Source: Candidatus Methanocorpusculum faecipullorum (GTDB lineage: Archaea > Halobacteriota > Methanomicrobia > Methanomicrobiales > Methanocorpusculaceae). Taken from it: DNA of 38,451 nt. Under the pieces are notes generated by a model. The model did not search any database. It was not told the origin of the DNA and saw nothing but the letters and a program-made list of their open reading frames with translations. The stretch spans positions 42,040 through 80,490 of the forward strand of contig JAHLFR010000002.1 in NCBI GenBank assembly GCA_018883755.1, given 5' to 3'. Of the stretch, positions 33,151 to 36,793 are shown piece after piece. The position numbers and the translations under genes were made by a program. Within the stretch, counting starts at the first letter, position 1; the number at the start of each line of letters is the position of its first letter.

Positions 33151-33765
33151 TTAGAGAATTTTCTGGGTGAATGCAACGGAGCCGGAGATTCTGGTGATCC
33201 GTACTTTGACGGTCTGACCGGCTTTTGCTCCGGAGACATACAGGATATATTTGCCGACGTGGGCAACGCCGTCTCCCTTCTTGCTGATGGATTCTATCTG
33301 AACTTCGAGTTCTTTTCCTTCCTCGATCGCCGGACCCTGGACTTCGGTCTTTGTCTTACGCTTTCGGATCGGGCGTTTGGATCCGCATGCTTCGCAGAGA
33401 AGCATCAGTACACGATCGTCTTTGACGAGTTTTGTATCCGGGCGGCCGCACTCGGAACAGATCACATAGTCGTTTACGTAGGTGGTGACAATTGCTTCAA
33501 ACTGTGACTCTTCGAACTTTCCATTGAAGACACCGCGGGTACCGTCGATCTTGCCGGCGGTTCCAAGCTCACCTAAGATGAACTTCATGAAGTGGTCTTT
33601 GTCACGGTTGAGTGTTCCGGCGATGTCGGCGAAGTTTTCCAGGACGGTGGTCTTACCCTCAATATAGACCTTGGTCTTGGGCATGACGAACCGTTCTCCG
33701 GTGCTTGTCGGTTCCGTCATACCTGAGTATGCCGCCTTCAGCATATCCTCATATGAATCAACCAT
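33151..33765 (-). CDS. translation initiation factor aIF2 beta with C-terminal TRAM domain
   Basis: Beta subunit of the factor that delivers initiator tRNA. The 204-residue protein has the helical N-terminus (SYEDMLKAAYSG), the central alpha/beta domain (to about 98), the zinc ribbon C103, C106, C124, C127, and then an added TRAM domain at about 146-204 (GKELEVQIESISKKGDGVAH, then AKAGQTVKVRITRI). The usual aIF2-beta ends near residue 140, so the TRAM part is a fusion, one that I recall from related methanogens. TRAM domains bind RNA and occur as stand-alone RNA chaperones in methanogens, so the fusion may add RNA binding to the factor. Confidence 0.95.
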   Translation of the reverse strand: MVDSYEDMLKAAYSGMTEPTSTGERFVMPKTKVYIEGKTTVLENFADIAGTLNRDKDHFMKFILGELGTAGKIDGTRGVFNGKFEESQFEAIVTTYVNDYVICSECGRPDTKLVKDDRVLMLLCEACGSKRPIRKRKTKTEVQGPAIEEGKELEVQIESISKKGDGVAHVGKYILYVSGAKAGQTVKVRITRISGSVAFTQKIL

Positions 33766-33861
33766 ACTCCTATATTTTAGCGCTGGAGGCTTAAAGTTCT
33801 GGCGTCACCCGGATACATACAGGTGTTTTTCTTTGCAGCGATCAAATAGTTTGGATAAGTT

Positions 33862-35886
33862 ATGCTGGCAGAACATGATGAGGAGTATATTCGATCCGTT
33901 CTCGGACGGAATCTGAAACCGCTGGAAGCGGCTGCATTTGAAAAAGTGTGGAGTGAAGATTGTAGCTACCGGATTACAAGGAAGCTTCTGGATACACTGC
34001 CGACAATAGGAGGAAGTGTAATTCTCGGACCCGGAGATGATGCGGCGATCGTGAAGTTCTCGGACGAACTTTCCCTGGCAATTGCAATGGGATCACAAAA
34101 CCGTTCAAGTTGTACAAATCCATATCAGGGGGCAGCAACAGGAGTGGGAAGTGTTGTTAGAGATGTGCTTTCGATGGGGGCGCAGCCTATCGGAATACAG
34201 ACTCCCTGGTTCTTTGGAGACATTTCAGACGAAAAAACGCAGTGGATAATTCGTAATGCAACCGCGGGAGCTGCGGATTACAGTAACACAATCAATGTGC
34301 CGGTTCTTCCGGGATACCAAATGTTTGACGAAAGTTTCAGAGGAAACCCGCTGATTAATATGATCTGTTTCGGGGTGATGAAACCGAACCGGTTCATGTT
34401 TGGGAAAGCGTTCAAAACAGGGTGGAAGCTGATCCTCTTTGGCGGAACAACAGGACGGGCCAGTTTCACCGACGTAGAGGGAGATCCCCAGATTGAGGCA
34501 AATCTTATCTCAGCAACTCTGGAGATGTTTGAAAAGAAGACGATCCTTGCATGCCGGGGTCTGGGGACGACAGGAATATGCGGGGCATCTGCTGATATGT
34601 GCGTGGATGTCGGTGTAAGAATTTTTGCAGATGCCATACCTCTGCGTGCGGAAGGGATGAGCACAGAAGAAATTCTGTTTTCCGAAACGCAGGAGAGAAT
34701 GCTTGCAGAGATTCATCCCGACAAAGTGGAGGAGGCAAAGGAGATCTGTGCGAAGTATGGTATTTCATGTGTGGTGGTCGGCGAGACTACAGGATCTGAT
34801 CGGTATGTGGTTGAGTTCGGCGGGGAAGTGGTGTGTGATCTGCCGATAAAACTCCTTGCAGAGGGTGCGCCCGAAAAGGAGTACCCCACAAAACCCTATA
34901 CGGCGGAAAAGCCGTTTGTCCGGCCAGCAGGAACAATCCGGGAGCTTGCCCTCAAAGTGTTGTCTCATCCGGATCTTGCGGACAACAGTATGCACGCAAC
35001 CCAGTTCAACTCACAGGCACAGGGGAGAACTTATGCGGCTACCCCGTTTTACTCGGTACTGGAGCTGGAAGGAAACGGACTCTCACTCGCCTGCGGGTGT
35101 AATGCCAGGCATACCTATCTGGATCCGTACACCGGCGCGGCAAACACAATTCTGGAACTAGCATCCCACATCGTCTCAGTCGGAGGGATCCCGTTCTGTG
35201 CTCTGGACAGTTTAAACATCGGGTCACCGGAAAATCCGGAGATCATGTGGCAGATTTCAGAGATTGTGAAGGGTATAGGGGATATGTGCCGGGTGCTGCA
35301 TATTCCAATTGCAGGGGGAAATGTTTCACTGTATAATGAGTCTGATACCTGTGACACTACGATAAAACCTGCCGCAGCGGTTGCAATGTTTGGAAAAGGA
35401 GATCTGATCGGCTGGGAGTGGCCGGATGTGGGAGACAGCATCGCAATTGTGGGTGAGACAAGATCAGAGATTGGAGGTTCAGTCCTGGATGCGGTAACCG
35501 GATGTGGCGGTACTGCTCCCGAACTCGGAAGCGTTGCGGCATTGCCGGTCATCCGGGATTTGGTCGAAAAAGCTCAGGTAAGCGGTTCGATGGCGATTAC
35601 ACGGGGAGGACTGCTGTATGCGCTGGTGAATCTTGCAGCCCAGGCAAAGGTAACGATCCGGGGAGATGCAGTAACAAAACTGTTCTCAGAAACATACGGA
35701 CGGTTTTTGGTGACGTTTTCGGATGAGCATTTCCTCAAAGAGAGCGGACTTTCCTATGAGATTATCGGAAAAATTACGGCGGACGGAAAACTGACGATTC
35801 AGACCGAAGAGGAGGAAGTAGTACTGACACAGCAGGATCTCTTCATGGCGGGAAGTACGATTACGCGGGCCTGCCGTGCACGGTGA
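33862..35886 (+). CDS. PurL-like protein with altered active site
   Basis: A 674-residue protein that follows the whole length of PurL (FGAM synthase large subunit, purine synthesis) but has lost its signature residues. The usual WSEHCSY is WSEDCSY here (D33). The usual ESHNHPS segment reads GSQNRSS at 77-83, so the Glu and both His are gone. GGE reads PGY, the GGASFAS block is deleted, QVGDPFTEK is not recognisable, and DMGAAGL reads GLGTTGI. Structural parts remain: GPGDDAAIV, PYQGAATGVGSVVRD, SETQERML, DPYTGAANTILE and IAGGNVSLYNES. The frame is intact, so it is not a plain pseudogene. It stands alone, without purS or purQ. I infer a paralogue with a new or regulatory role; a purL annotation would be misleading unless no other copy exists. 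Confidence 0.8.
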   Translation: MLAEHDEEYIRSVLGRNLKPLEAAAFEKVWSEDCSYRITRKLLDTLPTIGGSVILGPGDDAAIVKFSDELSLAIAMGSQNRSSCTNPYQGAATGVGSVVRDVLSMGAQPIGIQTPWFFGDISDEKTQWIIRNATAGAADYSNTINVPVLPGYQMFDESFRGNPLINMICFGVMKPNRFMFGKAFKTGWKLILFGGTTGRASFTDVEGDPQIEANLISATLEMFEKKTILACRGLGTTGICGASADMCVDVGVRIFADAIPLRAEGMSTEEILFSETQERMLAEIHPDKVEEAKEICAKYGISCVVVGETTGSDRYVVEFGGEVVCDLPIKLLAEGAPEKEYPTKPYTAEKPFVRPAGTIRELALKVLSHPDLADNSMHATQFNSQAQGRTYAATPFYSVLELEGNGLSLACGCNARHTYLDPYTGAANTILELASHIVSVGGIPFCALDSLNIGSPENPEIMWQISEIVKGIGDMCRVLHIPIAGGNVSLYNESDTCDTTIKPAAAVAMFGKGDLIGWEWPDVGDSIAIVGETRSEIGGSVLDAVTGCGGTAPELGSVAALPVIRDLVEKAQVSGSMAITRGGLLYALVNLAAQAKVTIRGDAVTKLFSETYGRFLVTFSDEHFLKESGLSYEIIGKITADGKLTIQTEEEEVVLTQQDLFMAGSTITRACRAR

Positions 35887-36124: not shown

Positions 36125-36430
36125 TTACTCCAGCTCAACTTTTAAACCGCCGAAGACACCCGCAGCGAGATTGTAGATGACTGCCACGATTGCGCCGACG
36201 ATGAACCCAATGATCATACCTATGACAGCGAGGATGACAATACTAATGATTAATCCGACAATACCGGTACCAACTCCGGTAAGACCAGAGATCGTCCCTG
36301 CGACAGACAGGTTGAGGAGGGCAAGAACTGCACCAATGATACCGATGATGACGGTGATAACAAGATTGATTGCCGCACAAAGCTTTGCGGCAGACCATAC
36401 ATCAACGTGTCTGACTTCTTTCGTTTCCAT
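36125..36430 (-). CDS. small glycine-rich membrane protein 1
   Basis: A 101-residue integral membrane protein with no signal peptide. It begins with a charged METKEVRHVDV, then has two or three hydrophobic glycine-rich helices (about 17-40, 47-72 and 73-93) and ends GGLKVELE. It is a paralogue of the next gene upstream, sharing the start (ME-KE---D--S-AK), the motif ALYN/LYN near the end, and the terminal GG-K-ELE. It resembles small archaeal membrane families of the DUF3566 kind, but I am not sure of the family. Function is unknown. A TATA-like box about 30 bases upstream suggests its own leaderless transcript, and a hairpin terminator follows. Confidence 0.75.
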   Translation of the reverse strand: METKEVRHVDVWSAAKLCAAINLVITVIIGIIGAVLALLNLSVAGTISGLTGVGTGIVGLIISIVILAVIGMIIGFIVGAIVAVIYNLAAGVFGGLKVELE

Positions 36431-36499: not shown

Positions 36500-36793
36500 T
36501 TACTCAAGTTCCATCTTGACGCCGCCAAAACTGTTGGCAACAAAGTTATAGAGGAACCCGGATACTGCACCACCGACGAATCCCACAATCACACCAACAA
36601 CTGCTCCGAACAGTGCGGAGAGAATATAGGAGAAGAGTTCTCCGGCAAATGCAAAGACATGATGCGGTGGAAGAGGGGCTGCGGGACCAAAACCTCCCAG
36701 AAGACCGAACAGAAAACCAAAGACCAGACCGATCACGGCAAAGAATTTGGCAACTGAGAGGATATCAAGCGATTTGATCTCTTTTATTTCCAT
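36500..36793 (-). CDS. small glycine-rich membrane protein 2
   Basis: A 97-residue paralogue of the preceding entry. It starts MEIKEIKSLDILSVAKFFAV, has a hydrophobic helix at about 13-36, a proline/histidine loop (AAPLPPHHVFA), then a second glycine-rich helical hairpin at about 50-85, and ends GGVKMELE. Hydrophobic segments rich in G-x3-G spacing suggest tightly packed helices, perhaps an oligomer. Function is unknown. It appears to be transcribed separately from its neighbour since each has its own TATA-like box and T run. Confidence 0.75.
   Translation of the reverse strand: MEIKEIKSLDILSVAKFFAVIGLVFGFLFGLLGGFGPAAPLPPHHVFAFAGELFSYILSALFGAVVGVIVGFVGGAVSGFLYNFVANSFGGVKMELE

Follow-up and report, generated by a model that had tools for sequence, protein, structure and literature searches.

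An orphan small PurL of Methanocorpusculum that has lost its catalytic signature while under purifying selection

Introduction

Why would a gut-type methanogen preserve, in an unbroken reading frame, a homologue of FGAM synthase II from which the catalytic signature has gone? The question is raised by P0001, a gene that we chose for study because its frame is intact, and that lies on a stretch of 38,451 nucleotides from Candidatus Methanocorpusculum faecipullorum, the whole of which is referred to here as the window (C9:42040-80490). The species is known from one MAG representing a single strain, whose assembly of 1.25 Mb comprises 46 contigs and is 79.9% complete. Displacement by a large PurL is already known in this genus, as passages in Brown et al. 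(2011, PMC3261824) report that M. labreanum possesses a clostridial-type large PurL and lacks purS and purQ. In the literature that we searched, we found no description of a small PurL surviving as an orphan.

Results

The initial annotation of this locus described a PurL homologue with an open frame of 674 codons, and we found no internal stops within it (Table 1). The substitutions that it listed, comprising D33, G77, Q79, R81 and S82 together with GLG at residues 233-235, are all present as described, with WSEHCSY reading WSEDCSY in P0001. Two further losses required qualification. The GGE motif is absent as claimed, but its loss is not private to P0001, as the sister genus has RGD in its place and all six orthologues of the genus have SGY or PGY. 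The GGASFAS block is likewise absent; in detail, however, what P0001 alone has is an in-frame deletion of 21 codons over the DGxGGAxFAS loop. In the alignment with T. maritima that had been proposed as a check, the residues lost in P0001 match H32, E70, H72, H74 and D236. These residues, along with D94 and Q208 of the T. maritima protein, are presumably catalytic or metal-binding.

Table 1. Coordinates of P0001 and associated features, numbered from the first base of the window.
Feature	Position	Strand	Remark
aIF2-beta (eIF-5_eIF-2B + TRAM)	33151..33765	-	divergent neighbour marking the ancestral locus
15-base leader element ATACAGGTGTTTTTC	33817..33831	+	31-45 nt before ATG
P0001, orphan small PurL, 674 aa	33862..35886	+	catalytic signature lost
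codon 33, GAT (Asp)	33958..33960	+	His (WSEHCSY) in the other 10 family sequences compared
GSQNRSS, residues 77-83	34090..34110	+	replaces ESHNHPS
junction (approximate) of 21-codon in-frame deletion	34450..34470	+	exact edge ambiguous in the alignment
GLGTTG, residues 233-238	34558..34575	+	replaces DLGAAG
C-half, residues 325-674	34834..35883	+	tightly constrained half on the window branch (dN/dS contrast)

With respect to family membership, P0001 scores 570 bits against TIGR01736, above the cut-off of 525.75, which by sequence score makes it an FGAM synthase II and bears out the warning that automatic annotation as purL would hide the change. Its score against NF002290 is 540.3, below the 648 of that model. 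P0001 resembles small PurL proteins (TIGR01736; Thermus 3viu, T. maritima 2hs0) in length, in the ancestry of its locus and in its predicted fold, which is that of a complete PurL with two PurM-like halves and whose lowest-confidence loop, residues 201-204, falls at the deletion junction. It differs from them in that the motifs WSEHC, ESHNHPS and DLG/DMG are lost, the DGxGGAxFAS loop is deleted, and the partners PurS and free PurQ were found neither in the assembly nor in its 24 congeners. The earlier observation that no purS or purQ lies beside the gene therefore extends to the whole assembly, at 79.9% completeness.

A search for a second, canonical purL, which the initial annotation had also proposed, did find another PurL, but not a canonical small one. 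Elsewhere, at C17:14172-17849, the assembly has a bacterial-type FGAM synthase that is intact and forms a single chain (TIGR01857, 1823 bits). Its motifs read WSDHCRH, ETHNHPT and DFGAGG, and WSDHCRH, ETHNHPT and D[FL]GAGG occur in all 22 of the N-terminal parts of the large enzyme that were read. The large enzyme is present in 24 of the 25 genomes of the genus, the exception being G025 (71% complete). It is absent from all eight sister-genus genomes and from every other genus represented in a set of 232 genomes from the order, and in a sample of 392 genomes from the phylum it was confined to one genus of 136, Methanocorpusculum. PurS was found in none of the 25 genus genomes versus seven of eight in the sister genus, and the counts for free PurQ over the cut-off were the same (0/25 versus 7/8).

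The small PurL is present in six of the 25 genomes of the genus and missing from 19. An order-wide search returned four one-piece matches from the genus with scores of 1089 to 1531 bits, the window included, and two more that were split in two pieces; the best match outside the genus scored 658 bits. The five other orthologues, among them those of M. petauri MG (G015; L057), a marsupial isolate according to a passage in the 2023 genus paper (PMC10035134), and the MAG Hm464_bin161 (G030; L056), occupy the same locus as P0001 and are likewise orphans beside the large enzyme. In all six genus loci, as well as in all four sister-genus loci laid out, the gene is divergent from aIF2-beta, with a spacing of 97 to 1638 bp. 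Given this common arrangement, the small PurL was inherited vertically. The earlier suggestion that this PurL homologue diverged within the methanogen lineage is supported.

In a tree of the large PurL, the six species with a small PurL fall into one clade together with G024 and G029 (support 95/90); G000 is placed near G015 at an open fork (83/92), and the small-PurL data favour G000 outside. The genomes G024 (73% complete) and G029 (61% complete) thus lie inside the gene-keeping clade and have no copy. Among the 19 genomes without the gene, G029 gave no aIF2-beta match, and the 18 aIF2-beta regions read from the others contained no small PurL remnants (best tblastn E 0.026). In G024 (L174, C272), the sequence that adjoins aIF2-beta, 190 bases from where the contig ends, does not run into a small PurL, possibly reflecting recent loss or rearrangement. 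PGK adjoins aIF2-beta in three of these 18 regions. In the window, two adjacent small membrane proteins that match DUF3566 and are mutually paralogous (36125-36430 and 36500-36793, both on the minus strand) lie between the P0001 gene and PGK.

Upstream of the gene we identified a conserved leader element, ATACAGGTRTTTTTC, which in each of the six species with a small PurL lies 31-45 nt ahead of the start codon. The four sister-genus loci lack it before the gene, and eight genomes that have no small PurL lack it next to aIF2-beta, a distribution consistent with retained expression of the small PurL. The 15-mer was also considered as a regulon marker and rejected: it has nine exact places in eight of the 25 genomes, six of them before the small PurL. 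The other three places are single (G010 C43, G011 C1 and G013 C14).

As a reference for the residue changes we used 140 sites that are conserved in at least 95% of 52 dereplicated small PurLs. All six genus members differ at 19 of these and some of them at another eight, while a further 21 are lost only in P0001, 19 in the N-half (four via the deletion) and two in the C-half. Private changes at these conserved sites number 0 to 2 in each of the five other orthologues, which serve as a control and which, unlike P0001, retain WSEHCSY, ESHNHPS, DLGAAG and the Gly-rich loop. We therefore consider that two steps, one common to the six species and one private to P0001, led to loss or alteration of function. 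The common changes include RGD to SGY or PGY, which places the loss of GGE in the first step, and the QVGDPxxEK region; in addition, where the sister genus has Asp in LMDP, all six have Ala or Thr, a common difference that falls short of the 95% rule. Among the sites invariant in the five other orthologues, the N-half has 230, of which 39 are changed in P0001, and the C-half has 246, of which 11 are changed; with the strictest sites alone, the contrast between halves has p=0.086 (15/75 versus 2/34). The small PurL of G032 (L038) exhibits the reverse of P0001, its C-half being the most changed (26 of 238 sites that are invariant in the other four); the C-half is therefore not the protected half everywhere.

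The initial annotation had also proposed a dN/dS comparison among close relatives. Using a codon model scripted for this analysis, which assumes one base composition though GC3 is 0.51 versus 0.61-0.66 and in which dS is near saturation, we obtained a dN/dS of 0.083 for the window branch and 0.095 for the rest, and the neutral model was rejected (p=8e-25). Two other topologies likewise led to rejection of neutrality for the window branch. Across five species, dN/dS is 0.085 in the small PurL and 0.078 in the large enzyme. The corresponding values on the window branch are 0.045 for the large enzyme, 0.050 for aIF2-beta and 0.077 for a neighbouring hydrolase; the small PurL is thus at about twice the value of the large enzyme, so some relaxation is real. 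This branch is uneven along the gene, at 0.126 in the N-half and 0.046 in the C-half (p=2.7e-6), a contrast that is stable to half boundaries at 300, 370 and 400 and across three topologies, and opposite to the pattern in the large enzyme (0.014 in the N-half, 0.067 in the C-half). The neutral phase was estimated as 0 for the whole gene or both halves, and as 7.5% of the branch for the N-half alone (p=0.004). P0001 hence combines the loss of catalytic residues on an intact predicted fold with purifying selection, as a pseudoenzyme would, and has neither the stops and frameshifts nor the whole-gene neutral evolution of a pseudogene. A pseudoenzyme, one of the two options of the initial annotation, is likelier than a pseudogene.

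Discussion

We suggest, with a probability of roughly 0.6, that P0001 is a displaced archaeal small PurL that has become a pseudoenzyme and is kept by selection for binding rather than catalysis. On this account, the gene would be the original FGAM synthase II of its lineage. Gain of a single-chain clostridial-type FGAM synthase by the genus would have been followed by loss of PurS and PurQ, leaving the small PurL an orphan that was presumably deleted in most of the genus and kept under purifying selection in one clade, altered at sites that are invariant elsewhere. The window species would then have gone further, losing the ATP/Mg and catalytic residues of the N-half while the C-half became tightly constrained. 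P0001 would be a folded and probably expressed scaffold; its residues indicate that it is catalytically dead, and the selection acting on it points to its being kept for a function. The present role is best read as lying mainly in the C-half. What it binds is a matter for speculation: the second PurM-like half might hold a nucleotide or purine intermediate, or the scaffold might bind a partner, for example the large FGAM synthase. A more specific version, which we regard as tentative, is that the displaced PurL has turned regulator, with a C-half that still binds either a nucleotide of the purine pathway or the large FGAM synthase, thereby tuning or scaffolding the latter, while the catalytic half degenerates.

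The main rival is partial decay confined to the N-half. A gene on its way out, recently rendered useless in the window species and in early decay with its frame intact by luck, is somewhat unlikely, although most of the genus evidently dispenses with the small PurL, P0001 is losing invariant residues, and dN/dS on the window branch is about twice that of the large enzyme. If all of the N-half excess is read as 0.16 units of neutral time, 3.4 stops would be expected and the chance of none is 0.03; with 0.05 units that chance rises to 0.34. Decay should, however, affect both halves, whereas the whole gene has a neutral fraction of 0 and a C-half under tighter constraint than the background, and neither stops nor frameshifts have appeared and the leader element is intact. 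The codon models reject a simple pseudogene, although the N-half still shows partial relaxation.

An active enzyme that has changed its substrate, in the window species and its five relatives alike, appears improbable. Purifying selection throughout the clade would agree with it, and the five other proteins combine retained WSEHCSY, ESHNHPS and DLGAAG motifs with the common changes in RGD and the QVGDP motif; these five may indeed be enzymes with a new substrate. In P0001, however, both His residues and the Glu are gone from ESHNHPS, as are the WSEHC His and the DLG Asp. Since four residues aligned at the ATP/Mg and catalytic site of T. maritima are gone, the new-substrate enzyme offered by the initial annotation is unsupported for P0001.

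That P0001 continues to serve the organism as its FGAM synthase II is very improbable, its TIGR01736 score and complete predicted fold being set against the lost signature and the intact large enzyme, which together with the PurS and PurQ searches also rule out a plain purL with overlooked partners. A chimeric assembly or a sequencing error at the motif positions, conceivable for a MAG in 46 contigs, is just as hard to credit, as each altered codon differs by one to three bases from its counterparts in the five nearest orthologues (at residue 33, for example, GAT replaces CAC) and so is not single-base noise, the multi-base changes are scattered from residue 33 to 322 of the N-half, the GC3 of the gene (0.51) is close to that of the large PurL of the same genome (0.52), and the flanks are collinear with those of relatives.

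If P0001 is the displaced pseudoenzyme that we favour, a comparable case may be the gammaherpesvirus vGATs, PFAS/PurL homologues that are described in passages of one paper (PMC10820379) as pseudoenzymes recruiting cellular PFAS. Going by those passages, the vGATs, like P0001, have the FGAM synthase scaffold without its catalytic residues in a cell with a working enzyme. Unlike P0001 they are viral, derived from the large form and linked to host immunity, such that the likeness is by analogy and at the level of the family. Should the regulator reading be true, P0001 would be a cellular counterpart of these viral PFAS-like pseudoenzymes, and one genus would contain a series from enzyme to orphan to pseudoenzyme. 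The steps would form a dated series, from the three-part FGAM synthase of the sister genus, through displacement by a bacterial single chain and an orphan with altered substrate-side residues, to loss of the catalytic half under selection; such transitions are seldom caught with close relatives at every stage. They also illustrate that equivalog-level annotation can label a dead scaffold as an enzyme, which affects reconstruction of the archaeal purine pathway.

A second PurF of Methanocorpusculum (Mlab_0150; Brown et al. 2011, PMC3261824) is, like P0001, a purine amidotransferase paralogue of the same genus in which the catalytic residues of one domain are lost. It is a different enzyme, and because it occurs also in species without a small PurL, a link between the two was dropped. 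Matches to purF were found in 24 of the 25 genus genomes. The second copies at G000:C30:529-1860 (L207) and G015:C54:61813-63144 (L209) start with MSGIAGI, in which Cys has become Ser, a Ser that passages of the same paper already note for M. labreanum. In these copies VSVALV replaces the HNGNLV of the first copy and VDDSIVRGTTS is retained, residues that indicate a dead glutaminase half beside an intact PRPP motif.
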